NCBI GenBank assembly: GCA_030691505.1
Contig: JAUYEG010000014.1
Coordinates: forward strand, 1 to 64,000
Length of the DNA stretch: 64,000 nt
Direction: 5' to 3'
DNA from: Bacillota bacterium
GTDB taxonomy: Bacteria; Bacillota; Sulfobacillia; JAUYEG01
Shown here: positions 1,178 through 18,724 of the stretch, one piece after another
How the letters are laid out: each line of letters opens with the position of its first letter
Numbering within the stretch: the first letter of the stretch is position 1
Translations under genes and position numbers: made by a program
The notes under the pieces: generated by a model
Seen by the model: only the letters and a program-made list of their open reading frames with translations
Databases searched by the model: none
Told to the model about the DNA's origin: nothing

Positions 1178-1915
1178 TCAGCCAAAGCGGCCTTCGGGCT
1201 TGCAGGGACCTGAACTCTCCAGTTCCTTGACACGTTCCTGAAGCACCGAAACCCTAAGTTGCAGCTCCTCCATCTTGGCACGTTCACCCCAAGCAGTAGG
1301 ACCGACGAGCCGTTCACACAGCTCCTCAAAGCTCTGATATCTAACGGCCTTCATTTTCCTTACAAGGCATTCTGCGGTCTTGACTGCGTGGTCGTTTGGA
1401 TTCGCCACTAGGAATCCACGTAACCGCTTGTTGCGAGCCAGAGCCCGAGCAAACATGGTCCGGGCGTCAGCATCGGCCTCGGGAAAGGAGTATCCGATGA
1501 TCGACAAGGTGTCAGCGCACTCCAAGAGGGCAGAAGCCCGGTCCCATATAGGTTTCACGATGCATAGGTGCGAGCTCTTGTCTATCCGCGGGGGGAATGA
1601 GAACCGGGACCAGTTGACATCCACAGGCGTTGCACTTGTGGCAGTATCGTTCCCGCCAGATGGGCTAAGAGACTGTGAGACCCATGGCCTAGTGCAAGTC
1701 CCAGTAGGGGTTCCGATGGTAGTACTCGTTGTAGGATGCAAGATCACTGTACTCGACTTGTGTCGGGTACTCCCACCAACTGGCTCCCTGGCGTAGATAG
1801 AGGCGGCAAGGGCTTTCCTTGTCCGGGCAATAGAGGAGTAGCTCATCAGTGGATACCACCGACCCGGCATACCCGGCCGGCAGGACACATCGGTTGAGCA
1901 CGCGCGCCCAGCCAA
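1178..1915 (-). pseudogene. Remnant of a SIR2-like domain protein
   Basis: The C-terminal half of this frame has the late SIR2-like signature: a PP...K stretch, IWDRASALLECADTL, then IIGYSFPEADADAR and a NKRL...VANP segment, typical of SIR2_2-type NAD-binding proteins found in defence and stress genes. It ends in a heptad-like coiled coil (LQLRVSVLQERVKEL). The N-terminal Rossmann part is missing. Between about 1690 and 1900 a different minus-strand frame looks more protein-like (STDELLLYCPDKE, YNEYYHRNPYWDLH), suggesting at least one frameshift. The DNA is visibly less GC-rich than its neighbours. I infer a decayed, perhaps transferred gene; an intact short protein is not excluded. Confidence 0.45.
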
Positions 1916-2154
1916 CCTGCGGCCCAGAATGCCGTCCAGTTCCAGCTCGATGTGCTACCTGAAAACGGGCTGCGGGTCGAGCGCAACACCAGATCTGAGG
2001 TGGTCTCGGCGCGGTCAGCCTGTGCCATCCTACAGACGGTTGCGCAAAGATCGCCCAGCCGAGGATCTACTCCGGTAGGGACTAGACAGCAGAAACCGAA
2101 GCGCCTCCCGCAAGAGTGAGGAAGCGCACGGAGACGGGCTCAATGAAACCGGGC

Positions 2155-3495: not shown

Positions 3496-5175
3496 CTAAC
3501 CCCCATACTCCTCCCGCAGCCGTGCGATCTCGGTCTCCTCAATCCGCCTGAAGAGCAGCGGCGGCACATCAAACGGCCGCTTACCGCCAAGGCGCGTCAG
3601 CAGCCGCGGGTCAGAGGGGTGAGCGGTCCGCTCCTCAGGCTCAAGGTGGAGGGCCTCAAACACGGCTTCCGCGGTGAAAGGGATGAACGGCCACGCAGCA
3701 ACTGCGAAGACCCGGGCTAGGTTCACGGCCGTGCGCAGGACAATTGAAGCTTGCTCCGGGTCCTCTTTAAGCAGTTTCCAGGGTGCCCGTTCGTCGACGT
3801 ACACGTTCCCCAATGACCAGAGCCGGCGAAGCGTGCTGACCGCCTTCCTGAACTCCATAGCGCGCAGCTGCTGCCGGCACTCGCCAAGCACCTCCGAGCA
3901 CTCGCCGGTTAGGCGTGCCTCACGGTCTCCAGGAGCGCCGCCTACCGGGATTCTGCGGCCGACCCGTGATTCGATAAGCTTCAGGGTACGGTTGACGAAG
4001 TTGCCGAAGTTGCCTACCAGATCTTTGTTGATCGTGGCGGCAAAGAGCTCCCAGGTGAAGTCAGAGTCGTCCGTTTCCGGGGCGTGAGCCATCAGGAAGT
4101 ATCGCCAGTAGTCGGGTGGCAGAATCTCCAAGGCCTTGTCCATGAAGACTCCCCGTTTCTGGCTGGTGGAGAACTTGCCGCCATAGTAGGTCAGCCAGTT
4201 GAAACCCTTGATGTATGACGGTAACGTCCACGGCTCGCCTGTCCCCAGTATGCTCGCTGGCCAGAAGACGGTGTGAAACGGCAGGTTGTCCTTCGCCATG
4301 AACTGCACGTAGTAGACGTCGTCGGCGTCGAGCCACCACCTGGGCCAGTCACGGTCAGAAGGCCGGAGGTCGGACCATTCCTTGGTCGCCCCGACGTAGC
4401 CAATTGGCGCGTCAAACCAGACGTAAAAGACCTTGTCTTGGAACCCGGGCCGGGGGACCCGAACTCCCCAGGTCAAATCGCGTGTGATACACCTGTTCTT
4501 CAGTCCCTCGTCGAGCCACTTGAGGGCGATGGAGGTGGTCAGGCGGGGCCACTCGGGATGAGATTCAACCCAAGACCGCACCCGGCCGCTCAGTACCTCA
4601 AGATCCAAGAAGAGGTGGTCGGTGGCCCGGAACTCGATCACCGTGCTCCCTGACACGGCCGAACGCGGGCCAACCAGTTCCGTGGGCTCCAGGAGGCACG
4701 TGCAGTTCTCGCACTGGTCGCCTCGCGCGGCGTTGTAGCCGCAGCGGGGACAGGTGCCGATGACGTACCGGTCCGGAAGGAAGCGGCCGTCATCCGGCGA
4801 GTAGCACTGGAGTAGTTGCTTCTCCTCGATGAAACCGTTCCGCTCAAGGGCAAGGTAAAACCGCTGGGTTACCTCATGGTTCTGGGGCGCCGAGGTTCGT
4901 CCGAAGTGGTCGAAGGAAAGCCCAAATCGCCGGTAGACGTCCGCCTGGAGCCGGTGCTGGCGTTCGCAATAGTCCGCGACGTCCAGGCCTGCTTCCAGCG
5001 CCGCGATCTCCGCGGGGGTCCCGTGTTCGTCCGTGGCGCAGATCAGCAGGACCTCCTCACCCTCGGACCGTAGGAACCGCGCATAGACATCTGCGGGGAG
5101 CATCGACCCCACTAGGTTGCCTAGATGTTTCATCCCGTTGATGTATGGAAGAGCGCTTGTGATCAGATACCGCAC
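3496..5175 (-). CDS. metG: Methionine--tRNA ligase
   Basis: Charges tRNA-Met with methionine. The 559-residue product has the class I signatures in order: the HIGH-like HLGN at 17-20, a four-Cys zinc knuckle in the connective domain (C142, C145, C155, C158), and the KMSKS equivalent KFSTS at 334-338, followed by the alpha-helical anticodon-binding domain. It ends soon after that domain and so lacks the C-terminal tRNA-binding extension of many bacterial MetRS; this short form is common in Bacteria. Start is GTG 5175 behind a perfect GGAGGTGATC. Upstream, CGTTGC...GCAACG (near 5204-5221) can form a small hairpin, but no T-box core sequence was found there. Confidence 0.95.
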   Translation of the reverse strand: MRYLITSALPYINGMKHLGNLVGSMLPADVYARFLRSEGEEVLLICATDEHGTPAEIAALEAGLDVADYCERQHRLQADVYRRFGLSFDHFGRTSAPQNHEVTQRFYLALERNGFIEEKQLLQCYSPDDGRFLPDRYVIGTCPRCGYNAARGDQCENCTCLLEPTELVGPRSAVSGSTVIEFRATDHLFLDLEVLSGRVRSWVESHPEWPRLTTSIALKWLDEGLKNRCITRDLTWGVRVPRPGFQDKVFYVWFDAPIGYVGATKEWSDLRPSDRDWPRWWLDADDVYYVQFMAKDNLPFHTVFWPASILGTGEPWTLPSYIKGFNWLTYYGGKFSTSQKRGVFMDKALEILPPDYWRYFLMAHAPETDDSDFTWELFAATINKDLVGNFGNFVNRTLKLIESRVGRRIPVGGAPGDREARLTGECSEVLGECRQQLRAMEFRKAVSTLRRLWSLGNVYVDERAPWKLLKEDPEQASIVLRTAVNLARVFAVAAWPFIPFTAEAVFEALHLEPEERTAHPSDPRLLTRLGGKRPFDVPPLLFRRIEETEIARLREEYGG

Positions 5176-5345
5176 GTGTCAGATCACCTCCGCAGTTCCG
5201 GCGTTGCCTGGTTGCAACGAGGTCCTCCGGATGTACCTGCCTGGCCGAGGTGCTCAGCGATGGAGACCCAGTCTCAATCGGCACAGCAAGCGTGTCTTCT
5301 CCACTCCCACCCGAAATATGCATTGCTCTCCGGCCGTCCAGCTAC

Positions 5346-5933
5346 CTAGCCCGGCGCTCCCCCGCGCCTGAACTCCTTCTGAATCATCTCCATCACTGCC
5401 CGGAACCCTTTGCCGTCGATGCCCGCGACGGCCTGCAGCATTGCCTGGACTTCGGGTTCCAGAAGCAGCCGCCGCACGTCCGGGGTGAGGTTGGCGAGGA
5501 GGGTCTCCGGGTCGGGTCCCTCGACCAGCAGGTGGCACGGAGTGACGCACAGGGCGCGCGCCAGCCGTTCCACGGTTTCGAGCGAAGGCCGGGTGGCTCC
5601 AGCCTCAATCTGCGAAATCATCCCGGCTGAAAGGCCCGCCCCCTCCGCCAGCTCGTCCTGCGCCATGCCCATGCGCTCTCTTGCGCGCCGGACGCGCGCA
5701 GGCAGGTCGGGCGCGTCGAGGCCGGCGCCGGGAGGCGGGATAAGGGAATTGCGGGTAATGCCGAGGGCCGCTGCGATCCTATCCAGGCTTGCGAGCGACG
5801 GGAGTTTCTTGCCCTGTTCGATCTCACTGACAAAAGAGGGCGACAGGTGGGCCTTTGCCGCTAGGGCGCTAATGGTCAGCCCGAGGTCCTGACGGCGGCG
5901 GCGCAGCTCACAGCCAAGCAGTCTGGCCCGCAT
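5346..5933 (-). CDS. Transcriptional regulator with two tandem XRE-type HTH domains
   Basis: About 195 residues from ATG 5933. Two complete Cro/C1-type helix-turn-helix units lie in tandem: one near residues 8-62 (LGLTISALAAKAHLSPSFVS, EIEQGKKLPSLASLDRIA) and one near 78-135 (MGMAQDELAEGAGLSAG, ISQIEAGATRPSLETVERLA), followed by a C-terminal helical region (LTPDVRRLLLEPEVQAML) that may serve in oligomerisation. A longer frame extends to 6050, but it would translate the palindrome at 6009-6030 and has unnatural Gly/Arg-rich sequence, so the shorter start is preferred. Likely a DNA-binding repressor, possibly autoregulated; its targets are unknown. Confidence 0.8.
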   Translation of the reverse strand: MRARLLGCELRRRRQDLGLTISALAAKAHLSPSFVSEIEQGKKLPSLASLDRIAAALGITRNSLIPPPGAGLDAPDLPARVRRARERMGMAQDELAEGAGLSAGMISQIEAGATRPSLETVERLARALCVTPCHLLVEGPDPETLLANLTPDVRRLLLEPEVQAMLQAVAGIDGKGFRAVMEMIQKEFRRGGAPG

Positions 5934-6008
5934 GAAACCGTCATGCTCTCCGCTGCCCCGCTCTCCGCCGCCCCGCTGGCGCTGCCCGGCACCCACGGCC
6001 ATCCCCCC

Positions 6009-6030
6009 GGTACAGTGTACCATGTACCAT
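6009..6030. promoter_or_regulatory. Palindromic site, candidate operator of the double-HTH regulator
   Basis: GGTACAGTGTACC (6009-6021) is a perfect 6-bp inverted repeat around one base, and a third half-site TGTACC follows at 6023-6028. It lies about 75 bases upstream of the preferred start of the double-XRE regulator, a usual position for an autoregulatory operator, and the 13-mer is AT-richer than its surroundings. Binding is inferred only from position and symmetry. Confidence 0.45.
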
Positions 6031-6115
6031 CCAGCGCGCAGGGAGTGCATTGGGCGCAGGCAGGCAACCCGTCAGGGCGGACACCTTGCCGGACAGGCAG
6101 ATTCCGGTCGATCGT

Positions 6116-6901
6116 CTACCTATTCGGCAGGAGCCCGATCACCAACGCGGCGATATGGAGCGGCACGACCGCCGGAAGCCCCAGCAACAGCCTGCCCCAG
6201 GCTCGCGGCGTGTCGAGGACGCCAGCGTAGTCCTGCAGCCAGTAGGATCGCACGGACCGGAACAGGATCGGCACGTCGACCGCCGACCGCCGCGCCGTGG
6301 CGGCGGGGTCCAGGTTGATGCGGTCAAAGGCCCCGAGGATGCGGTCCTGCTGATCGCCTGTCAGGTCGCGGCGGTAGACCGCGACCAGCGAGCCCCGCGG
6401 GCCGTCGCGGCGCGCCGATTCGACCGGATCCGCCGGACCCGGCGGCAGCTGGTTGACGCCCCGCCAGAAGTAGGACACAGTTGCCCGCGTACTCTCGTCG
6501 CCCGGGCCGAGCGAATACGCAAACCACCCGCTACCGATTCTCGCCGAGGCCAGGGGCTCCCCGGTGGTCATCAGTTCCGATGACACGGCCGCCGCAACCG
6601 ACGACGCGTTGGCGCGGTAGTCCATGGCATCGGCGATGTAGGTGTGCCAGAGCGGCCGCCCAAAGAAAGCCAGGGTACCCACGATAAGCACCAGCAGCAG
6701 AAGCCACGCCGTGGCCGTAACGGGGTCGCCGGGCATGGTGACCGGAAGCCGGCGGGCCCTCACAATCCGGCGCGGCCGGAACCGCCGCAAGGTGGCCCGA
6801 AGTGCGAGCAGCAGCGACACCCATGGCAGCACAGCAGCGGCGGTGACCAGAAACGCGACTATGACGCCTCGCGTGGCCCATCCCTCCCTGCCGCTAATCA
6901 T
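6116..6901 (-). CDS. Membrane protein of unknown function
   Basis: 261 residues from ATG 6901, preceded by CAGGGAA. Two N-terminal membrane segments (GVIVAFLVTAAAVLPWVSLL and TATAWLLLLVLIVGTLAFF, about residues 12-34 and 62-85) are separated by an Arg-rich cytoplasmic loop. Then comes a roughly 130-residue soluble region (probably extracellular, with SRVR and DLDP-like turns) and a last hydrophobic segment at the C-terminus (LLLGLPAVVPLHIAALVIGL). This layout suits a membrane-anchored sensor or envelope protein. No family recognised. It may be cotranscribed with the double-HTH gene 66 bases downstream of its preferred upstream end. Confidence 0.6.
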   Translation of the reverse strand: MISGREGWATRGVIVAFLVTAAAVLPWVSLLLALRATLRRFRPRRIVRARRLPVTMPGDPVTATAWLLLLVLIVGTLAFFGRPLWHTYIADAMDYRANASSVAAAVSSELMTTGEPLASARIGSGWFAYSLGPGDESTRATVSYFWRGVNQLPPGPADPVESARRDGPRGSLVAVYRRDLTGDQQDRILGAFDRINLDPAATARRSAVDVPILFRSVRSYWLQDYAGVLDTPRAWGRLLLGLPAVVPLHIAALVIGLLPNR

Positions 6902-7001
6902 TCCCTGTTTGAACGCAAGGCTGGCATGCAGACCATAGCCAAGACCAACTCAGTTGGCAGATGAACGGTTTGATGCCATTCTTTTTTTCTGCAGCAGGTA
7001 G

Positions 7002-7030
7002 TTGACAAAACCACAGGCCCAGCATATCTT
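7002..7030 (+). promoter_or_regulatory. Sigma-A-type promoter for the ilv-leu leader
   Basis: A consensus TTGACA (7002-7007) and TATCTT (7025-7030) are separated by exactly 17 bases. Transcription would start near 7037, about 645 bases before ilvN, so all the structured leader described next is transcribed. This is the best housekeeping promoter match seen in the window. Confidence 0.75.
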
Positions 7031-7186
7031 TAGACCCAATACCTGCTCCGCTTGATTCGACCGCCCTCGGCGGATCCGATGACGGCGCCGTGACAGCGGC
7101 AAGAGGGCAGCTACAACCTCAAACGAGAGGTCAGGAGGGCACCTAGGGTTCCGGTGCGGCGCACAGCGGCCGTGCGACAGGTCCGA

Positions 7187-7280
7187 GCGGTGCCAGGCGC
7201 GCCGGTAGGCGCGCCACACCGTGGGTACAAAAGACCCCAGCGGCAATTCCGGACAACGGGAAGCGCCGCTGGTTTGTTTT
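7187..7280 (+). promoter_or_regulatory. Upstream structured leader element ending in an intrinsic terminator
   Basis: A long hairpin is formed by CGGTG (7189-7193), GGCGCGCC (7196-7203), loop GGTA, GGCGCGCC (7208-7215) and CACCG (7217-7221). Directly after it, CCAGCGGC (7237-7244) pairs with GCCGCTGG (7265-7272), followed by TTTGTTTT: a clear terminator. This precedes the T-box by about 60 bases, so transcripts meet two terminators in series. A 42-codon frame from GTG 7154 ends at TAG 7280-7282 within the U-tract, but it is Arg-rich and has no run of Leu, Ile or Val codons, so classical leader-peptide attenuation is not obvious. The class is not recognised. Confidence 0.5.
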
Positions 7281-7339
7281 AGTCAGAGTGGGTTTGTGAG
7301 CAGGAGTGTCCCGCAGGAGTGTCTCAACGGCATATCGAC

Positions 7340-7648
7340 ACAGGCGATGAGGGAACCAAAGCCGGGACAGGTCGCGCCAAAAGAGAGCCGGGTAAGGTGT
7401 AAGCCGGCGCGTTGACCTCCGGAATGCTCGATCCCGAGCCGGTCGCGTGAACAGGCCACAAGGGCCCCAGTAGCCCGACCCGGGCACTGCCCGTTAGAGC
7501 ACTATCCCCGCAGAGTTGGGCAGAGCTGGGCACGTCTCGGCTGAGCCCAACTCCGGGGAGGCGAGGACCGCGCCGCAAGGGGCGGTCGAAACCGGGGTGG
7601 TACCGCGCACCCGTGCCTCCGGAACCGGAGGCTCGGATGCGCTTTTTT
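7340..7648 (+). promoter_or_regulatory. T-box riboswitch controlling the ilv-leu operon
   Basis: The conserved T-box core GGGTGGTACCGCG is at 7595-7607. The terminator that competes with it pairs GCGCA with TGCGC and GCCTCCGG with CCGGAGGC, followed by TTTTTT (7643-7648). Stem I is recognisable: AGGTC-GCGCC (7369-7378) with GGCGC..GACCT (7406-7418), the AAAAGAGAG bulge and the GCCGG...CCGGC tip enclosing GGTGTAAG. Stem III is the perfect pair GAGTTGGGC (7513-7521) with GCCCAACTC (7545-7553), extended by CCCCG/CGGGG. After GGAAT the specifier region reads GCTCGATCCC; CTC (Leu, 7427-7429) suits the pathway, with ATC (Ile) as the alternative. Uncharged tRNA would stabilise antitermination and allow transcription of the biosynthetic genes. 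Confidence 0.9.
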
Positions 7649-7682
7649 GTTTGTGATTTCACAGGACAAGGGAGGACGGCTG

Positions 7683-8273
7683 ATGAGGCACACGCTTTCC
7701 GTGCTGGTAGAAGACAAACCGGGGGTCTTGACCCGAATTGCGGGCCTCTTCGGCCGCCGGGCGTTCAATATCGACAGCCTGACCGTCGCGGGCACGGAAC
7801 GGCCGGGCTACTCCAGGATGACGATCGTCACCCGCGGCGACCGCCACGTCATGGAGCAGATCGAGAAGCAGCTCTACAAGCAAATCAACGTGCTTAAGGT
7901 CAGTAACCTCACCTCGGCGCCTGCGGTTGAGCGCGAACTCGTCCTCATCAAGGTGCAGGCGGACGGCCAGAGCCGCGCGGCGGTCACGCAGATCGTCAAC
8001 ATCTTCCGCGCCCGCATAGTGGATGTCGCACCGCGCTCGCTGGTGGTCGAGGTGACCGGGGACCGCGAAAAGATCGAAGCCATCCTGTCGATGCTCCGCC
8101 CCTTCGGTATCAAGGAGGTCGTGCGGTCCGGCCCCGTGGCCGTGTCGCGCGGCCACGGGTCGCTGGCGATGCCGGACGAAACCCCCTCGCCGCAGGCCCC
8201 GTCGCTGGATGATCGCGATGTCCCGGCAGCCGGGGACGTCGCCGCCGAATCGAGTTTTGCGGGCATGAAGTAG
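7683..8273 (+). CDS. ilvN: Acetolactate synthase, small regulatory subunit
   Basis: Regulatory partner of the catalytic subunit IlvB; in this family it confers valine feedback inhibition. Start ATG 7683 follows AAGGGAGGACGGCTG. The 196-residue protein opens with the ACT domain (RHTLSVLVEDKPGVLTRIAG, FNIDSLTVAGTE), and the second ALS_ss_C domain follows (ELVLIKVQADGQSRAAVTQI, SLVVEVTGDREKIEA, LRPFGIKEVVRSG). The family normally ends there, near residue 160; here a roughly 38-residue Pro/Asp/Ala-rich tail is added. It is the first gene after the T-box terminator, while its partner ilvB is last of the nine genes. Confidence 0.95.
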   Translation: MRHTLSVLVEDKPGVLTRIAGLFGRRAFNIDSLTVAGTERPGYSRMTIVTRGDRHVMEQIEKQLYKQINVLKVSNLTSAPAVERELVLIKVQADGQSRAAVTQIVNIFRARIVDVAPRSLVVEVTGDREKIEAILSMLRPFGIKEVVRSGPVAVSRGHGSLAMPDETPSPQAPSLDDRDVPAAGDVAAESSFAGMK

Positions 8274-8363
8274 GCGCGGACGGCACGCGCTGCCCGTCGG
8301 GTACGGCGTTTCGTTATCGTTCGTCGCCAATCGCATGACGCGAGATTCGGGAGGGAGATCTAC

Positions 8364-9476
8364 TTGACAGACACACAGCAAAAGCCGGGCACCAGCTCCG
8401 GCACCAGCTCCTGCTGCGGCTCCGGCTTCGGGGCCGGCCAGGCGCGGATGTACTATGACAAAGACGCCGATCCCCAGCTGCTTTCTGGCAAGACCGTGGC
8501 GGTCATCGGCTACGGCAGCCAGGGCCACTCCCAGGCGCAGAACCTCCGCGACAGCGGCGTCAGCGTTATTGTCGGCCTGTACGAGGGCAGCCGCTCCTGG
8601 GCCCAGGCCAAGGCGGACGGTTTCGACGTGCGCGTCGCCGCCGAGGCCGCCGAGGCCGCCGACATCGTTCAGATGCTGATCCCCGACGAAAAGCAGCCCC
8701 CCGTCTATCACCGCGACCTGCTGCCGCCGCTGCAGCGCAAGGCCGCCGCCGCCAAGGCCGCCGGGGACCCGGCTGCGGCGCCCGCGTATTGCTGCTCGCA
8801 CGGTTTCAACATCCACTTCGGGCAGATCCAGCCCCCGGCCGGCGTTGACGTCTTCATGGTCGCCCCCAAGAGCCCGGGCCACCTGATGCGGCGCGTCTAC
8901 ACACAGGGCGGCGGGGTGCCGGGCCTGCTGGCGGTGGCTCAGGACGCGTCCGGGCAGGCCCACGCGCGCGGCCTCGCCTACGCCTGGGGCATCGGCTGCA
9001 CCCGTGCCGGTGTGATCGAGACCACCTTCAAAGAGGAAACCGAAACCGACCTCTTCGGTGAGCAGTCCGTGCTCTGCGGCGGCGTGAGTTCGCTGGTCAA
9101 GATGGGTTTCGAAACCCTTGTTCAGGCGGGCTACCAGCCGGAGATCGCCTACTTCGAGTGCCTTCATGAGCTCAAGCTCATCGTCGACCTCATGTACGAG
9201 GGCGGGCTGGCCGGCATGCGTTACTCGGTCAGCGACACGGCCACCTACGGCGACCTGACCGTGGGCCCCAAGGTCGTCGGCGAGCCGGTCCGCCAGGCCA
9301 TGGCCCGGTGCCTCGAAAACATTCAGAGCGGCGTGTTCGCCCGTGACTGGATCCTTGAGAACCAGGCCGGCAGGCCCGTCTACCGGGCCCTTGAGCGCCG
9401 CGACGCCGAGCACCAGATCGAGCTCGTCGGCGCCAGGCTGCGCGGGATGATGTCCTGGCTCAAGAAAGGCAAGTGA
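8364..9476 (+). CDS. ilvC: Ketol-acid reductoisomerase (class I)
   Basis: Converts acetolactate or acetohydroxybutyrate to the dihydroxy acid with NADPH and Mg2+. TTG start at 8364 behind GGGAGGGAGATC. The Rossmann loop is [17 protein letters not shown], the coenzyme-selecting loop GLYEGSRSW, and the KARI signatures [35 protein letters not shown] and [17 protein letters not shown] are intact. At 370 residues it is longer than the usual 330-340. It has an N-terminal Gly/Ser extension with a Cys pair ([13 protein letters not shown]) and an Ala-rich insertion ([20 protein letters not shown]) just before HGFNIHF. Its stop overlaps the leuA start. Confidence 0.96.
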
Positions 9477-11146
9477 GCGCTGCGATGGCTACTCAGGCGG
9501 GCGGCGAGCGCCGCATCTTCATATTTGACACCACCCTGCGCGATGGCGAGCAGTCGGCGGGCGTGAGCCTTAGCCACAGCGAAAAACTCGAGCTAGCCGC
9601 GCAGCTGGCCCGCCTCGGCGTGGATATCATCGAGGCCGGCTTCCCGATTTCGTCGCCCGGCGATTTCGCCGCGGTACACGCCATCGCCGGGGCCTCGTGC
9701 GGATGGGCCGACAACCCGGTGATCTGCGGCCTGTCCAGGGCCATCTCCGCCGACATCGACGCGGCCTGGCGGGCGGTGCAGCCCGCGCGGCGGCCGCGTA
9801 TCCACACCTTCATTTCCACCTCGCCGGTGCAAATGCAGTACCAGCTGCGCAAGGGACCGGCCGAGGTCCTCGAGCAGGCGGTCGCGGCCGTGCGCCGCGC
9901 CAAGAGCTACTGCGAGGACGTCGAGTTCTCGGCGATGGACGCCTCGCGCAGCGACACGGCCTTTCTCAAGGAGGTCTTTGCGGCGGCGGTCGAGGCCGGC
10001 GCGACCACCATCAACATCCCTGACACCGTGGGATATGCGCTGCCTGACGAGTTCGGGCAGCTCGTGTCGGACATAATCGCGGCACTGCCGGCGGCCGCGG
10101 TCCCGGTGGTCGTCAGCGTGCACACCCATGACGATCTCGGCCTGGCCACGGCCAACGCTCTCGCGGCGGTGCAGGCCGGCGCGACCCAGATCGAGTGCAC
10201 CATCAACGGGATCGGGGAGCGGGCCGGCAACACGTCCCTCGAGGAGTGCGTCATGGCCCTCTACACCAGGCGGGCCCTGCTGCGGACATTCACCGGGGTG
10301 CGCTCCGTGGAAATCTACCGCACCAGCCGGCTGGTGAGCGCCCTCACGGGCTTCGTCGTTCCGCCAAACAAGGCCGTGGTCGGCGCGAACGCGTTTGCGC
10401 ACGAGTCGGGCATTCATCAGGACGGCGTGCTCAAGGCTCCGCAAACATTCGAGATCATGGACCCGACCACCATCGGCCGCCCCGACCGCCAGCTCGTGCT
10501 CGGCAAGCTGTCGGGGAGCCACGCGTTCCGCAACAGGTTGGAGCAGCTCGGCATCAGGCTGCCGGAAGAGCAGGTCCAGGCGGCTTTCCGCCAGTTCAAG
10601 GAGCTTGCCGACCGCAAGAGCGAGATCACCGACGAGGACCTCGAGGCCATCGCGGGCGGCGCGCTGGTGCCGGTTCAGGAGACGTTCACCCTCGACTATT
10701 TCCAGATCAGCACCGGAAACCGCAGCGTGCCCACGGCCACGGTGCGGCTCCGCATGGCCGACGGACGGGAGGCCGAGGAGGCGGCCACGGGCGACGGCCC
10801 CGTGCATGCAATGTATCATGCGGTGGACCGTGTCACCGGCGTCCCCGTTGCCCTGCGGGACTACTCCCTTAACGCCGCCACCTCGGGCAAGGACGCCCTC
10901 GGCGAGGTCAGCGTCAAGGTCGAGTACAAGGGACACGTCTACTCCGGCCGCGGCGTGAGCACCGACGTGCTCGAGGCCAGCCTCAGGGCGTACATCCACG
11001 CCCTCAATAAGATCATGGTCAACGGCGGACGCGCGGTGTCGGGCGGGGAGCAACGGCCCGCCGCCGCCGCCGCCGCCGGGGGCGGCGCGGCCGCCAGTAC
11101 CCCCATCTCCGGAAAGGGGAACGTTTCCGATGGCCACGCTGGCTGA
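9473..11146 (+). CDS. leuA: 2-isopropylmalate synthase
   Basis: Condenses acetyl-CoA with 2-ketoisovalerate, the committed step of leucine synthesis. The GTG at 9473 overlaps the ilvC stop; ATG 9485 is an alternative start. The TIM-barrel has the divalent metal and acid/base signatures DTTLRDGEQ, the HTHDD motif and [14 protein letters not shown], then the [12 protein letters not shown] linker and the C-terminal leucine-sensing domain (about residues 390-520). The final 40 or so residues are Ala/Gly-rich ([17 protein letters not shown]) and unlike other LeuA C-termini. The end overlaps leuC by 17 bases. Homocitrate or citramalate synthase are relatives, but the operon argues for LeuA. Confidence 0.95.
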
Positions 11147-12431
11147 GAAGATTCTCGCAGCGCACGCCGGGCTTGACGCGGTCAGACCCGGGCAACTGAT
11201 CGAGGCCGACCTGGATTTGGCTCTGGCGAACGAGATAACAGCGCCTCTAGCTGCGCAGGAATTCGCACGCACGGGCGCTAAGCAGGTCTGGGACCGCGGC
11301 CGCGTCGTGCTGTTGCCCGATCACTTTACGCCGTGCAGCAACATCAAGGCCGCCGACGAGTGCCGCAAGATGCGCGAGTTTGCCGCTGAGCAGCAGATCG
11401 AGCTGTACTACGAGGTCGGCCGCTGCGGGATCGAGCACGCGTTTCTGCCGGAGCAGGGCATCGTCCGGCCGGGCGACCTGGTCATCGGCGCGGATTCGCA
11501 CACCGTGACGTACGGCGGCATCGGGGCGTTCTCCACCGGCGTCGGCAGCACCGATCTCGCCGCGGGCTGGGCGACCGGTCGGAGCTGGTTCCGCGTGCCG
11601 GAGACGCTGCGGTTTAACTTCCACGGCAGGTTGCCGCGCTGGGTAGGCGGCAAGGACCTGATCCTGTACTGCATCGGGCAGATCGGGGTCGACGGCGCCC
11701 GCTACGCTGCAATGGAGTTCGGCGGCGAGGCGATAGCCGCGCTTTCGGTCGAAGGGCGCCTGACCATGTGCAACATGGCCGTCGAGGCCGGGGGCAAGGC
11801 CGGTCTGGTGGCCCCGGACGCGCTCACCTGGGCCTACGTGGACTCCCGCCCCCAGCGCCGCTTTGGCCAGCGCGGGCGTCTCCTCGGGCGCGATGACCTG
11901 CGCCCGGACCCCGGGGCCGAGTACGCCCAGGTTTGCGACTGGAACGTGGGCGATCTCCGGCCCCAGGTCGCTTGCCCGCACCTGCCGTCCAACGTGAGGA
12001 GCGTCGACGAACTCGGCGGCGTCCGGCTGGATCAGGTCTTTATCGGGTCTTGCACCAACGGCCGCTTCGAGGACCTGGCCGTCGCCGCCGGTGTGCTGGC
12101 GGGCCACAAGGTTGCGCCGCACACACGTCTGATCATCATCCCGGCGACGCCGGAAATCTGGCGTCGGGCAATGCGCGAAGGGCTTTTTGAGATCTTCCTC
12201 GATGCCGGCGCGGCGATAGGGCCGCCGTCGTGCGGGCCGTGTTTCGGCGGCTCGCTCGGCGTGCTGGGGCCCGGCGAGCGCGGCCTGGCAACGACCAACC
12301 GCAATTTCGTGGGGCGCATGGGCCACGCGACAAGCGAGCTTTACCTGGCCGGACCGGCGGTCGCCGCCGCTTCCGCGGTGGCCGGGGAGATCACCGCGCC
12401 GGAGTCCGTTGCCGGCGTAAGGGGAGCGTAG
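11130..12431 (+). CDS. leuC: 3-isopropylmalate dehydratase, large subunit
   Basis: Aconitase-family iron-sulfur subunit that isomerises 2- to 3-isopropylmalate together with LeuD. The 433 residues include DHFTPCSNIKAAD, GADSHTVTYGG and the three cluster ligands in FIGSCTNGRFEDL and GPPSCGPCFGG, plus the conserved NRNFVGRMGH end motif. ATG 11130 starts inside the end of leuA, indicating translational coupling; leuD follows four bases after the stop. Length and motifs are those of the bacterial/archaeal 420-residue LeuC form. Confidence 0.95.
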   Translation: MATLAEKILAAHAGLDAVRPGQLIEADLDLALANEITAPLAAQEFARTGAKQVWDRGRVVLLPDHFTPCSNIKAADECRKMREFAAEQQIELYYEVGRCGIEHAFLPEQGIVRPGDLVIGADSHTVTYGGIGAFSTGVGSTDLAAGWATGRSWFRVPETLRFNFHGRLPRWVGGKDLILYCIGQIGVDGARYAAMEFGGEAIAALSVEGRLTMCNMAVEAGGKAGLVAPDALTWAYVDSRPQRRFGQRGRLLGRDDLRPDPGAEYAQVCDWNVGDLRPQVACPHLPSNVRSVDELGGVRLDQVFIGSCTNGRFEDLAVAAGVLAGHKVAPHTRLIIIPATPEIWRRAMREGLFEIFLDAGAAIGPPSCGPCFGGSLGVLGPGERGLATTNRNFVGRMGHATSELYLAGPAVAAASAVAGEITAPESVAGVRGA

Positions 12432-12435
12432 GGCA

Positions 12436-13014
12436 ATGGCAACAGGCAAGGACGATACGGCCGGAGGCGAAATCGCCTTCACCGGCCCCGCCCGGGTCCT
12501 CGGCAACAACATCAACACCGACGATATCGTGCCCGGACGCTACCTCAACACGACCGACCCGGCCGAGCTGTCCTCCCACCTGTTCGCGGACTTCAGGCCC
12601 GAGTTGGGACGCACGCTGCAAAGCGGCGAGGTCATCGTCGCCGGGGGCAACTTCGGCTGCGGCTCATCGCGCGAGCACGCTCCCATCGCCCTCAAAGCCC
12701 GCGGCGTGACCTGCGTCGTGGCCGACTCGTTTGCGCGTATTTTCTTCCGCAATGCGCTTAACATCGGGCTGCCCATCCTCGAATGTCCGGGCGCCGCGGC
12801 CGCGTGTGCGGACGGCGACGTTGTGACGGTCGACGTTTCCGCCGGAAAGGTGACCATTGGAGCAGACGGGCCCACACTTGACGCGACCCCGTTCCCGCAG
12901 TTCATGCGGGACCTCATAGTGGCAGGCGGCCTGATCAACTACGTGGCCGCCCGGCTTGCGCCCGGGCTGGCTGGACAGGCCGGACAGGCCGGACAGGATG
13001 GGCGCAGCGCATGA
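12436..13014 (+). CDS. leuD: 3-isopropylmalate dehydratase, small subunit
   Basis: Swivelling domain partner of LeuC. The signature stretches NNINTDDIVPGRYL and GGNFGCGSSREHAPIALK are intact and the core (to about residue 180) has the length of the 160-170-residue family plus a short N-terminal extension. The C-terminus ends in PGLAGQAGQAGQDGRSA, encoded by three copies of the 9-bp unit GGACAGGCC, which is not part of the fold. ATG 12436 lies four bases after leuC; the stop overlaps the leuB start in ATGA. Confidence 0.95.
   Translation: MATGKDDTAGGEIAFTGPARVLGNNINTDDIVPGRYLNTTDPAELSSHLFADFRPELGRTLQSGEVIVAGGNFGCGSSREHAPIALKARGVTCVVADSFARIFFRNALNIGLPILECPGAAAACADGDVVTVDVSAGKVTIGADGPTLDATPFPQFMRDLIVAGGLINYVAARLAPGLAGQAGQAGQDGRSA
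12968..12996 (+). repeat. Three copies of a 9-bp in-frame repeat (leuD tail)
   Basis: GGACAGGCC is repeated three times (the last copy partial) near the 3' end of leuD and encodes the Gly-Gln-Ala repeats of the protein tail. A related array at 60158-60200 lies at the 3' end of the PEP-synthase-like gene and also encodes Gly-Gln-Ala repeats. Confidence 0.7.
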
Positions 13015-14177
13015 TGGCCACCACAGCTGCCGGTTCGGGTGCGGGGATCTGCGCATGCGGCGCGGCCCGCACCGTCGCTGTCCTCGCCGGCGACGGCATC
13101 GGGCCGGAGGTGACGGCTCAGGCTGTGCGGGTGCTCCAGCTGGCCGCGGGGCTGGCCGGGGTGCGGCTGACCCTATCGCCGGGCCTTATCGGCGGGCAGG
13201 CGATCGATGCCTGCGGCGAGCCGCTGCCGGCCGCCACGCTCGACCTGTGCCTTGGCGCCGACGCATGCCTGCTGGGGGCTGTCGGCGGCCCGGCCTGGGA
13301 CGGCCTCGCACCCGCCAGGCGCCCGGAGGCAGGGTTGCTCGCGCTGCGCAAGGGGATGGGCCTCTACGCCAACATCCGGCCCGTCGCGTGCCATCCGGCC
13401 CTGGCGGCCTCGTCGCCGCTGCGGCCGGACCTGGTTGCCGGGGCGGATTTGGTCGTGTACCGCGAACTCGGCGGCGGGATCTACTACGGCCAGCCGCGCT
13501 TCACCGAGACCCTTCCGGACGGCGGCGGGGAGCGCGCGGTCGACACCATGGTCTACACAACTCCGGAAATAGAGCGTCTTGCCCGCCTCGGCTTTGCGGC
13601 CGCCCGCAGCCGGCGCGGGCGCCTGACGTCGGTGGACAAGGCCAACGTGCTTGACTGCTCCCGGCTCTGGCGCCGCACGGTGCAGCAAGTGGCGGCGGAG
13701 TACCCCGATGTGCACGTGGATCACGCCTACGTGGACAGCTGCGCGATGGCCATCGTCGCCGCCCCGCGCGGTTTCGACGTCCTGGTCACCGGCAACATGT
13801 TCGGCGACATCCTATCCGACCTGGCGGCCTGCATCGCGGGGTCGCTGGGCATGCTCCCGTCCGCCAGCCTCGGCGAAAGGGGCGGCCTGTACGAGCCTGT
13901 CCACGGTTCCGCGCCGGGCATCGCCGGCCAGGACCGGGCCAACCCGCTGGGGGCGATACTCTCGGCGGCGATGCTGCTGGATCTGTCGCTTGGGCTGCAC
14001 CAGGCCGCGCAGGCCGTGAGAGGGGCTGTGTCGCGCGCGTTGGAGGATGGCTACCGGACGGCGGACATCTCGTCCGGGCGCGCCGGAGAGAGGCTCGTGG
14101 GCACGGCTGAAATGGGAGAGGCGGTGGCCGAGCGAATCCCGGCCGCCTGGAACGAAATGGGGAGGAATCAGCGATGA
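13011..14177 (+). CDS. leuB: 3-isopropylmalate dehydrogenase
   Basis: Oxidative decarboxylation of 3-isopropylmalate to 2-ketoisocaproate with NAD. Signatures of the isocitrate/isopropylmalate dehydrogenase family are present: LAGDGIGPEV, GAVGGPAW, GLYANIRPV, RELGGGIYYG, DKANVLDCSRLWR, the metal-binding VTGNMFGDILSDLA and YEPVHGSAPGIAGQ. The 388 residues exceed the usual 355-360 mainly through an N-terminal Ala/Gly/Cys stretch (TTAAGSGAGICACGAA) before the first beta strand and a short C-terminal extension. Start ATG 13011 overlaps the leuD stop; a second ATG follows directly. Confidence 0.95.
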   Translation: MMATTAAGSGAGICACGAARTVAVLAGDGIGPEVTAQAVRVLQLAAGLAGVRLTLSPGLIGGQAIDACGEPLPAATLDLCLGADACLLGAVGGPAWDGLAPARRPEAGLLALRKGMGLYANIRPVACHPALAASSPLRPDLVAGADLVVYRELGGGIYYGQPRFTETLPDGGGERAVDTMVYTTPEIERLARLGFAAARSRRGRLTSVDKANVLDCSRLWRRTVQQVAAEYPDVHVDHAYVDSCAMAIVAAPRGFDVLVTGNMFGDILSDLAACIAGSLGMLPSASLGERGGLYEPVHGSAPGIAGQDRANPLGAILSAAMLLDLSLGLHQAAQAVRGAVSRALEDGYRTADISSGRAGERLVGTAEMGEAVAERIPAAWNEMGRNQR

Positions 14178-15238
14178 AGTACGACCGGACAGCGTATACC
14201 CGTAACCGTCCCTCGCCGGCCGCCGGGCGTCAGGTGTACCTCGACGGCACCTTTGTGCCCGCCGAGCAGGCTACCGTAAGCGTCTTTGACCACGGCCTGC
14301 TCTATGGCGACGGTGTGTTCGAGGGCATCCGGGCCTACAACGGGCTGGTGTTCCGCCTCGACGAGCACGTCGCCAGGCTCTACGACTCGGCCAAGGCCAT
14401 CGGGCTGCGAATCCCGCTTACCCAGGCCGAGATGGGGGAGATCGTATGCGACACGGTCCGGGCAAACGGGCTCCGCGACGCGTACATCCGCCTCGTGGTC
14501 ACCCGCGGCCCGGGCGACCTCGGGCTGGACCCCCTGAAATGCCCGGCGCCAAGCGTGATCTGCATCGCCGATGCGATCAAGCTCTTTCCGGAGGAACTCT
14601 ATGACCGCGGGCTGCGGATCATCACCGCGGCGACGCGCCGCAACGTGCCCGAGGCCCTGAACCCGCGCATCAAGAGCCTCAACTACCTCAACAACATCCT
14701 GGCCAAGATTGAGGCCAACCAGGCCGGAGTGCTCGAGGCGCTGATGTTGACCCACGACGGGTTCGTGGCGGAGGGAACGGGTGACAACCTCTTTTTCGTC
14801 AAGGACGGGGTTGTGTGCACGCCCGCCATCAGCCAGGGGATCCTGCACGGGATAACCCGCGCCTGCATTATCGAGCTGGCCCGCAAGCGGGGGATTGCTG
14901 TCGCGGAGATGACGGTTGCCCGCTACGACCTCTTCACGGCCGATGAATGCTTCCTGACCGGCACGGCGGCCGAGGTAATCCCGGTGGTCGAGATAGACAG
15001 CAGGGTCGTCGGCACCGGCCAGCCCGGGCCGGTGACCCGCGCCCTCATCGCCGATTTCCGGGCGCTCGTCGTTAGCGAGGGGACGCCTGTGTACACCGCG
15101 GCCGAGGCGGCGGCCGGCGGGGCCGCGGCAGCCGGCGAAACCGCGGCGGCCGCGGACCGCGCGAGCGGCGGATGCTGTGCCGGCGGCGGCTCCTGCGCCG
15201 GCGGCTGCCCGGGCGGCGAGGGCAGCCGTGATGAGTGA
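14174..15238 (+). CDS. ilvE: Branched-chain amino acid aminotransferase
   Basis: Fold-type IV PLP enzyme that aminates the three branched-chain 2-oxo acids with glutamate. Motifs in order: [35 protein letters not shown], the PLP-lysine context [14 protein letters not shown], the Glu region [15 protein letters not shown], and the phosphate-binding [15 protein letters not shown]. The core (about 300 residues) matches the family. It is followed by a 45-50-residue tail rich in Ala, Gly and Cys ([18 protein letters not shown]), which carries four Cys. Starts in an ATGA overlap with leuB, and the tail overlaps the ilvD start. Confidence 0.93.
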
Positions 15239-16940
15239 CGCCTGCTCCCGGCCCCGGCGCAGCCAGGTCGTAACCACGGGGCCGGAACGCGCGCCGCACC
15301 GCTCGCTGTTCCGGGCGCTCGGTTTCGACGATGTCGACCTCGCCCGCCCGCTGATCGGCCTGGTCAACACGCAGAGCACCCTGATCCCGGGGCACATGCA
15401 CCTTGACCGGCTGGCCCTGGCGGCCCACGAAGGGATCTGCGCGGCGGGCTGCACGGTGGTTGAATTCGGGACAATCGGCATCTGCGACGGCATTGCGATG
15501 GGGCACGGCGGGATGCGCTACTCCCTGGCGAGCCGCGAGCTGATCGCCGACGGTATCGAGGCCATGGCCCAGGCCCACGCCCTGGACGGGCTGCTTCTGC
15601 TGGCCAGCTGCGACAAGATCGTGCCCGGCATGCTGATGGCCGCCGCCCGCCTGGACATCCCCTGCGTGCTCGTCGGGGGCGGTCCGATGCTGTGCGGCCG
15701 GATCGGCGACGAACCCCTCGACCTGATGGATATGTTCGAGGCGGTCGGCGCCTACCGCGCCGGCCGCATCGACGCCGCACGCCTGCGGGCGATGGAGCTT
15801 GAGGCCTGCCCCGGGCCCGGCTCCTGCGCCGGGATGTTCACCGCCAACTCCATGAACTGCCTCGCCGAGGCCCTTGGTATGGCGCTGCCCGGCAACGGCA
15901 CGATACCCGCCGTGCACGGACGGCGGGTAGCCCTTGCCCGCGCGGCAGGGCGCGCCCTGGCCGGCCTGGCGCTCCAGGGCGGCCCGACGCCCCGCCAGAT
16001 CATCGACCCGGCCAGCGTGCGCAACTCGCTGGCACTCGACATGGCTCTGGGCTGCTCATCCAACACGGTCCTGCACCTGGCGGCCATCGCGCACGAGGCC
16101 GGCGTGGAGTTTGACCTCAACCTGGTTGAAACCATGAGCAGACAGGTCCCACAGGTCTGCCTGCTCAGCCCGGCGGGCGAAGACCGCCTCGAGGACCTCG
16201 ACCGCGCCGGGGGTGTGCCGGCCGTGCTCCGGCAGCTGCTGGAGGCCGGCCTGCTGCAAGGCGGCACGCCGACTGTCACCGGCAGGACCATCGGCGAGGA
16301 TCTGGCGGCCTGCGGACCAGGGGCCCCATGCAGGGTGATGGGCCGCACGGGGCAGCCGGTCATCCGCCCGATGACGGACCCGGTCGCTCGCGAGGGTGGG
16401 CTGGCCGTGCTTCGCGGCAACCTTGCCCCGGACGGCGCGATGGTCAAGGTTGGCGGGGTATCCCCCGGCATGCGCAGCCACCGCGGACCGGCGCGTGTTT
16501 TTGAGGGCGAGGAAGCTGCGGCGCGAGCGATTCTTGACGGACTGATCCAGCCGGGCGACGTCGTGGTCATCCGCGGCGAGGGGCCGGCCGGCGGACCCGG
16601 GATGCGCGAGATGCTCGCGCCGACCGCGGCGCTGGTCGGGGCGGGGCTCGGCCAGCGTGTTGCCCTGATCACGGATGGGCGCTTTTCGGGAGCGACGCGC
16701 GGCCCATGCATCGGCCACATCTGCCCTGAAGCCGTCCACGGCGGACCGATCGGCCTGGTCCATGACGGCGACATGATCTCCTTTAACATCGCCGAAAGGT
16801 CGCTGCGGCTGGAAGTGGACGATCTGGAACTGGCCCGGCGCCGCGAGGGCTGGTTCCCCGGAGCGCCGCGGGTATCCGGCTATCTTGCCCGCTATGCCCG
16901 CCTGGTCGGGCCGGCCAACAAGGGAGCTGTGCTATCGTGA
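15231..16940 (+). CDS. ilvD: Dihydroxy-acid dehydratase
   Basis: Iron-sulfur dehydratase giving 2-ketoisovalerate and 2-keto-3-methylvalerate. Start ATG 15231 follows GGCGAGGGCAGCCGTG; the open frame extends 54 bases upstream, but only through the ilvE tail. The 569-residue protein shows [43 protein letters not shown], the late [17 protein letters not shown] and the [12 protein letters not shown] end region, matching the IlvD/Edd family at normal length. IlvD and sugar-acid dehydratases are close relatives; the operon settles the choice. The stop overlaps the ilvB GTG. Confidence 0.95.
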
Positions 16941-18724
16941 CGTTGTCTGGTGCCGCCTACGTCGTCAAGTTCCTGCGGGAGCAGGGCGTGGAGGTCGTCT
17001 TCGGTTACCCTGGGGGATCGATCCTGGAGATTTTCGACGCCATGGCCGCCGACGGCATCCGGTTCGTGCTGACCCGTCACGAGCAAGGGGCGGTCTTTGC
17101 CGCCGACGGGTACGCGCGCGCTACCGGCAAAGTCGGGGTCTGCATGGCCACCTCGGGACCGGGCGCCACAAACCTCATTACCGGCCTGGCCTGCGCCCAC
17201 ATGGACAGCGTGCCGATCGTGGCCATCACCGGACAGGTCTACTCCCACCTGCTGGGGACCGACGCGTTTCAGGAGGCGGATACCTTTGGCATAACGATGC
17301 CGGTCACCAAGCACAACTTCCTGGTGCGCGGCGCCGGGGAGCTCCCGTCGGTGCTGCGCCAGGCGTTTCACATCGCGGGCACCGGCCGCCGCGGCCCCGT
17401 CCTGGTCGACATCCCGCGGGATGCGGCGCAGGGCGTGGTCCGCTCGGAAAAGGCGGACCTTGACCTGCCCGGCTACCGGCCGACCGAGGAGGGCCATCCG
17501 CTGCAGCTGCGGCGGGCCGCCGAAGCCCTGGTGGGGGCGCATAAGCCGGTGATCTGGGCCGGAGGCGGCGTGGTCGCCGCAGGCGCCGCCGCTGAGTTGC
17601 GCGCCCTGGCGGAGGCGCTTGGGGCCCCGGTGATGACCAGTCTCATGGGCCTTGGGGTCATGCCCGCCGATCACCCGCTCAACCTGGGTATGGTCGGGAT
17701 GCATGGGACGCCCTGGGCCAACTGGGCGGTCCACCGCTGCGACCTGCTCTTCGCAGCCGGGGTCCGCTTCGACGACCGTGCCACCGGCAAGCTGGAGCGG
17801 TTCGCCCCGGATGCGCAGTTGGTGCACATCGACATCGACCCCGCCGAAATCGGCAAGCTGCTCAAGGCGGTTGTTCCCGTTGTCGCCGACCTGGGCACGG
17901 CGCTCCCCGCCGTGCGGGCGCTTGTTGTGCAAATACTTAACGGTAACCAAAGGCTAATCGGCAGGAGCGGCACAGGCCCCGCAGCCGACGCGGGCACAAC
18001 CGCTGGCGCTGAGCCCGGTGCCGCTTCTGAAGCCGCCGCCGCTGCCGACCACAGCCGAAAGGAGTGGCTTGCGTCAATCGCCGCGTTCCGGGCCGGAAGC
18101 CGCTGGCCCCCCATCACCCACGCGGGCCCCGGAATGCACCCCGGCGAGGTCATGCTGGCCTTGGCCCGGGCATCCGAAGGAAAGGCAACGCTCGTGGCCG
18201 ACGTCGGCCAGAACCAGATGTGGGCCGCCCAGCTGTACCCGGTGCATGCCCCCCGGCGCTTCCTAACCTCGGGCGGCCTCGGCACCATGGGCTACGCGCT
18301 CCCGGCGGCGATCGGCGCGCAGATGGGCACGCCGGACGAGCAGATCATCGTGATCGCCGGCGACGGCGGGCTGCAGATGACGTCGCCCGAACTTGCCACA
18401 ATCGCCGAGCACCGGCTGCCGATCAAGATCTTCCTCATCAACAACGGCCACCTGGGGATGGTGCGGCAGTGGCAGGAGCTCTTCTTCAAGGAACGCTACA
18501 TGGCCGTCAAGATTGCCGGACCTGATTTCGTCAAGCTCGCCGGGGCCTACGGTCTGACGGGGATGCGCGTCGACTCCGTCAAGGATCTCGACGCGACGAT
18601 CGCCTCGGCACTGTCGACACCCGGCCCCGTCCTGGTCGACTGCGTGGTGCAGCCGACAGCAAACGTCTTCCCGATCGTGCCGCCGGGCAAGGGCGTTGAC
18701 CAGATGATCGACAAGGCGGAATAA
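16937..18724 (+). CDS. ilvB: Acetolactate synthase, large catalytic subunit
   Basis: TPP enzyme condensing pyruvate with pyruvate or 2-ketobutyrate. Motifs: [17 protein letters not shown], the catalytic Glu in [28 protein letters not shown], the FAD/central domain [15 protein letters not shown], and the TPP/Mg motif [12 protein letters not shown]...[12 protein letters not shown]. The 595 residues include an Ala/Glu-rich insertion encoded by about 17965-18057 ([17 protein letters not shown]) between the central and TPP domains. GTG 16937 overlaps the ilvD stop. It is the last gene of the pathway block, far from its regulatory partner ilvN at the front. Confidence 0.95.

Follow-up and report, generated by a model that had tools for sequence, protein, structure and literature searches.

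The leader of the ilv–leu operon in the 64,000-nt stretch of DNA analyzed here (the window) is very likely a two-input transcription-attenuation device, where a (p)ppGpp-dependent ON riboswitch of ykkC subtype 2a is followed by a leucine-specific (CUC) T-box. The assignment of the first element to its family and subtype, the presence of two terminators, the overlap of the aptamer with the first of them, the conservation of these parts, and the order of genes are read from the sequence. The coordinates of all features are given in Table 1.

Table 1. Features of the ilv–leu leader and operon. R1 and R2 are models of ppGpp-type and PRPP-type aptamers, respectively; C153 is a contig carrying the second copy of the locus.
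Feature	Position	Strand	Evidence
Sigma-70-type promoter, TTGACA-17-TATCTT	7002–7030	+	Promoter scan; both hexamers identical in the diverged C153 copy
ykkC subtype 2a (ppGpp-type) riboswitch aptamer, predicted	7125–7256	+	RF00442, 51.4 bits; R1, 79.9 vs. R2, 52.7 bits
P1, 5' strand GUC-A-GGA, pairs with 7248–7254	7130–7136	+	Sequence, constrained fold; P1 covaries in relatives
P2 domain: GGCACC (7138–7143) with GGUGCC (7189–7194), conserved segments CUAGGGUUCCGG and GGUCCGAGCGG	7138–7194	+	RF00442 and R1 alignments
Diagnostic pyrimidine C (A in guanidine-I aptamers)	7188	+	RF00442 alignment; rule from PMC6031431
P3, the GGCGCGCC hairpin, 7196–7203 with 7208–7215	7196–7215	+	Sequence, R1 alignment, fold
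P4 (CCGUGGGU/ACCC-CA-GCGG)	7219–7243	+	ppGpp-type and PRPP-type alignments, R1
P4/P1 junction CAA-UU, without G just before the P1 3' strand	7244–7248	+	Aptamer alignments
Terminator 1, riboswitch expression platform	7237–7280	+	Folding; 96% identity in C153
T-box leader: Stem I kink GAUGA (about 7346), AGAGAG (7382), Stem II AGUA (7469–7472), CGUUA (7492–7496)	7338–7607	+	RF00230, motifs, C153 identity
Specifier triplet CUC (Leu)	7427–7429	+	By eye; CUC at the same position in C153 and in 9 of 12 relatives' T-boxes
T-box sequence GGGGTGGTACCGCG / GGGGUGGUACCGCG	7594–7607	+	Sequence; UGGU (7598–7601) fits ACCA of a tRNA with A73
Terminator 2, T-box expression platform, T6 run	7606–7648	+	Folding, z = –5.75
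ilvN, acetolactate synthase small subunit, first gene	7683–8273	+	NCBIfam TIGR00119
ilvC, leuA, leuC, leuD, leuB, ilvE, ilvD, ilvB	8364–18724	+	Same strand, gaps <100 nt or overlaps

The original prediction of a promoter about 645 nt before ilvN is borne out: the scan of both strands yields a sole sigma-70-type site in the 6000–9000 region (0.2 are expected from shuffled sequences), with TTGACA at 7002–7007 and, after a 17-nt spacing, TATCTT at 7025–7030, ahead of the first element. Given a transcription start near 7037, the leader extends for approximately 646 nt up to the ilvN ATG at 7683. A start after position 7280, named beforehand as an observation that would speak against two elements in series, was rejected, as no promoter-like site was found in that region, and the spacer at 7281–7340 is just 39% conserved. 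In the gene cluster itself, the acetolactate synthase subunits are separated by about 8.7 kb, ilvN being the first gene and ilvB (16937–18724), the last one. Upstream of the promoter, divergent genes on the minus strand (5349–6050 and 6116–6901) encode a double helix-turn-helix protein and a likely membrane protein, the latter without a NCBIfam match. The source assembly is of the metagenome type (2.88 Mb in 177 contigs).

The first element had been noted as an unclassified one, possibly a different RNA sensor adding a second input to branched-chain synthesis. The second input stands, and the element can be classified: by its sequence it is assigned to ykkC subtype 2a, that is, to ppGpp-type riboswitches. 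The Rfam scan of the whole window at the gathering threshold yields nothing. The covariance check recommended for this element produces, in a permissive scan, a match to the Guanidine-I family (RF00442) at 7132–7245 (51.4 bits, E = 1.7e-7, model positions 1–107, that is the whole model), falling under the curated (gathering) cut-off of 63 bits. The score is weak because the aptamer belongs to subtype 2a: within the ykkC family, of which Guanidine-I is the parent, subtypes 2a, 2b, and 2c bind (p)ppGpp, PRPP, and nucleoside diphosphates, respectively (PMC6031431, PMC7266159). C stands here in place of the guanidine-type A of GGUCCGAG-A-G, and relatives retaining this A score 81.6–90.1 bits with RF00442.

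For finer classification, ykkC loci were gathered from genomes of the same class and from named genomes, and two models were built, R1 from 24 ppGpp-type aptamers mostly adjoining branched-chain amino-acid genes, and R2 from 14 PRPP-type aptamers mostly adjoining purine genes; the window and its second copy in contig C153 were left out of both. The relatives searched included no member of the host's own family or order. The window scores 79.9 bits with R1 (model positions 1–122) and 52.7 bits with R2, a gap of 27 bits, and the C153 copy, 81.4 and 51.1 bits, respectively. As a check of this classifier, we considered loci outside the training sets. Among those with genes read, all loci but one with R2 exceeding R1 are associated with purine permease, purB or purE genes, and the loci with R1 exceeding R2 are mostly found beside ilv/leu, livK or amino-acid transporter genes, as identified by Pfam run on part of the gene list. 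The exception (L177), which is PRPP-type by score, precedes a glutamate-synthase-like gene, a context of the ppGpp type.

Relatives of the aptamer covary strongly, whereas lack of conserved covariation had been named as evidence against a structured first element: in the ppGpp-type alignment, 18 of the 33 pairs are changed on both sides, with 112 such cells compared to 38 in shuffles, a level reached by none of 500 shuffles and far over the slid controls. The amino-acid gene context expected of subtype 2a (branched-chain or glutamate) is present here in its branched-chain form, and both a RelA/SpoT enzyme (775 bits) and CodY are encoded in the genome.

The P1–P4 architecture can be traced in the window, where P1 may form with one mismatch (A7133/G7251) and has a possible second pairing register. 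The very stable GGCGCGCC hairpin noticed at the outset is real, and is the aptamer helix P3. At the position of G96 of PRPP aptamers the window has A7239, as do most ppGpp-type aptamers, and in the segment ACACC (7216–7220) the equivalents of C75 and A74 are kept, the mapping to the published numbering being our own.

Two independent terminators in series before ilvN, as originally suggested, are confirmed by the folding z-scores and conservation in C153. Terminator 1 consists of a stem (7237–7244/7265–7272) and an inner stem (7247–7250/7259–7262), followed by TTTGTTTT at 7273–7280, with the energy of –23.4 kcal/mol (z = –4.5 compared to dinucleotide shuffles). Terminator 2 comprises 7606–7642 and the T6 run at 7643–7648, with the energy of –25.7 kcal/mol (z = –5.75 compared to shuffles). 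A simple terminator scan listed neither of them, because it allows a narrower set of loops and tails. The segment 7237–7250 (CCAGCGGCAAUUCC) is shared by two structures: in the aptamer it supplies the 3' sides of P4 and P1, and in terminator 1 it serves as the 5' arm. Binding of the ligand should therefore cause antitermination. The unconstrained fold of 7125–7284 results in the terminator (–77.1 kcal/mol), and the fold constrained to the aptamer has –65.3 kcal/mol; these model energies are as expected for a ligand-dependent ON switch. The native aptamer is missed by thermodynamic folding unless constrained. Probing of another ppGpp riboswitch has demonstrated that the ligand stabilizes P1 against folding of the terminator (PMC10687018).

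The second element, described initially as a well-defined T-box with its own terminator, is genuine, as follows from its motifs, the T-box sequence with alternative antiterminator and terminator pairing, and terminator 2. The RF00230 match at 7338–7505 has 33.1 bits with the gathering cut-off of 93, which is an annotation threshold and not a defining feature of T-boxes; all 19 T-box matches of this genome fall short of it. The tRNAs and T-boxes of the genome were located by family search, and tRNA-Leu(GAG) with discriminator A73 is encoded. Comparison by eye with relatives reveals one extra A in the specifier loop, 3' of CUC and before the helix. The element is best read as a Leu (CUC) T-box.

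A syntenic second copy of approximately 5000–8098 of the window is present in a 3.7 kb contig from the same bin (C153, G000:C153:1-3703; locus L190), which could be either a contig of a sister species binned together or a duplication. The identity between the copies is 91% in the aptamer, 96% in terminator 1, 39% in the spacer 7281–7340, and 89% in Stem I of the T-box; the upstream ORF is 83% identical, and ilvN is closely similar. Since islands of identity flank the poorly matching spacer, each sensor is retained together with its terminator, while the spacer drifts freely. In a DNA search of 154 genomes of the class, no close homolog of the element was identified besides C153.

We infer the identity of the ligand, the ON direction, and the AND behavior from these features, and the regulation could proceed as follows. 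Transcripts would begin at about 7037. Without the ligand, 7237–7250 would pair forward into terminator 1, and transcription would stop near 7280; (p)ppGpp binding would stabilize P1 and P4 and hold this segment in the aptamer, allowing for read-through. Further downstream, uncharged tRNA-Leu(GAG) would stabilize the T-box antiterminator, and otherwise terminator 2 would form near 7648. As each signal releases one of the two terminators in series, full expression of ilvN-ilvC-leuACDB-ilvE-ilvD-ilvB would require both, approximating an AND gate.

One feature of the aptamer is unusual. Both the window and C153 (CAA-UUCC) lack a G that lies beside the predicted ligand pocket, directly before the P1 3' strand; this G is invariant in the alignments of 24 ppGpp-type and 14 PRPP-type aptamers (AAGUUCC, AGGUUUC and similar) and, C153 excepted, present in every other subtype 2a or 2b aptamer compared. 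Because two pairing registers are available to P1, either a deletion or a G-to-U substitution may account for the change. In the crystal structures of the PRPP riboswitch and the G96A variant, G104 and G105 contact the ligand beta-phosphate, and by our own alignment the missing nucleotide appears to be G105, an apparent beta-phosphate contact. Its loss may lower the affinity, be compensated, or change the selectivity for the 5'-phosphates. An improbable alternative is thus a ykkC aptamer recognizing a ligand other than ppGpp or pppGpp, e.g., pGpp, or having altered 5'-phosphate selectivity. It agrees with the absence of the G in both copies and with the structural contacts, and the aptamer, being 91% conserved between the copies, is probably under selection; according to a 2023 review, pGpp binding by RNA effectors had not been studied. 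Still, the other pocket residues examined are standard, the operon is a classic ppGpp context, and, with the G105 mapping dependent on our alignment, the change could simply lower the affinity. The same loss of an otherwise universal G, along with the P1 mismatch, could be a sign of a ppGpp riboswitch that has decayed and lost ligand binding, with terminator 1 acting as a constitutive brake. We consider this quite unlikely, as the aptamer core and the terminator are 91 and 96% identical, respectively, compared to 83% in the neighboring ORF and 39% in the spacer, and all other conserved positions examined are retained.

The other explanations concern the class of the element. A guanidine-I riboswitch would be the outcome of annotation by Rfam only, RF00442 being the top match, and was assumed for such tandems in PMC12452182; with a pyrimidine at the discriminating site, a sub-threshold score far from the 81.6–90.1 bits of relatives with the guanidine-type A, and a biosynthetic context, it is highly improbable, and membership in this class was rejected. 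A PRPP riboswitch (subtype 2b) would share the scaffold, and R2 does match at 52.7 bits, but this is 27 bits under R1, A7239 stands in place of the near-invariant G96, and the ilv–leu operon contains no purine genes, leaving this reading with next to no probability; PRPP membership was rejected as well. A degenerate T-box or a peptide-coupled attenuator, both raised in the original prediction, is extremely unlikely. The T-box-like GTGGGTAC is indeed present, at 7221–7228; however, it is no T-box relic, being a strand of P4 in a full-length ykkC aptamer that aligns with the ykkC model end to end, and the degenerate T-box was rejected for this reason. The 42-codon frame also exists (7154–7282, plus strand), but, as was already clear, has no Leu/Ile/Val run, and in C153, the diverged copy, this GTG opens an unrelated peptide, so that the translation is not conserved and the role of a leader-peptide attenuator was rejected. 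We therefore retain the ppGpp-type riboswitch followed by the Leu T-box.

To see whether this arrangement recurs, we considered the ykkC loci of 101 genomes, requiring a T-box sequence 340–600 nt downstream of the aptamer start. Apart from the window and C153, 12 more loci with a ppGpp-type aptamer followed by a T-box were found in 11 genomes of the same class. By eye, the specifier is CUC in nine of them (L019, L020, L022, L024, L031, L163, L183, L185, L189) and GUC (Val) in three (L028, L030, L158). The locus L087 of Desulfofundulus australicus has the reverse order, with the T-box before the aptamer. In L022, a c-di-GMP-I-GGC riboswitch (1849–1936, plus strand, 79.6 bits) adjoins the ppGpp/T-box leader, the two being on opposite strands.

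The two-input arrangement itself has already been published, and the present locus is a further case of the ppGpp/T-box tandem. Sherlock et al. presented such tandems as AND gates in 2018 (PMC5912903); another account calls the two elements “often found in tandem,” each having its own expression platform (PMC6031431), and the 2022 catalog lists 15 ppGpp-first and 16 T-box-first cases, all Leu and all predicted AND gates (PMC9481103). A 2025 survey took T-box/Guanidine-I tandems to put ilv/leu operons under guanidine control (PMC12452182). This reading is doubtful, because our loci belong to the ppGpp type; judging from the loci fetched in this work, the “guanidine” tandems of that survey on ilv–leu operons are probably ppGpp riboswitches. 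Our analysis places a published two-input RNA gate where the default Rfam scan gives nothing and a relaxed one would say “guanidine.” In one little-studied class of Bacillota, at least 12 more loci are added to those with this gate, three of them apparently combining ppGpp with a Val T-box. Moreover, the missing G provides a natural variant for probing the discrimination of 5'-mono-, di-, and triphosphates by ykkC aptamers; if its loss did change the 5'-phosphate selectivity, for example so that pGpp is accepted or preferred over ppGpp and pppGpp, the first input to the AND gate would be another alarmone.

Compared to the published ppGpp/T-box(Leu) tandems, the locus has the same two elements in the same order, separate terminators, a branched-chain amino-acid operon, and a predicted AND gate, and differs by its occurrence in a deep Bacillota lineage and by the lack of the G before P1. 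In the 2022 catalog ppGpp tandems are Leu only, whereas three of the 12 further tandems of this class have the Val (GUC) specifier by eye. With ykkC subtype 2a riboswitches the element shares the fold, the conserved core, the pyrimidine at the guanidine site, the absence of G96, and the terminator overlapping P4/P1, the differences being the CAA junction without the following G and the P1 mismatch. The ykkC architecture is also common to Guanidine-I (RF00442) and PRPP (2b) riboswitches, while the discriminating bases and gene context differ. Finally, the second element resembles T-boxes of leucine operons in Stem I, the Stem II S-turn, CGUUA, the T-box sequence, and the terminator, and differs from them in the specifier loop, which lacks the usual 5' AGUA and has an extra nucleotide 3' of CUC, and in the low Rfam score.
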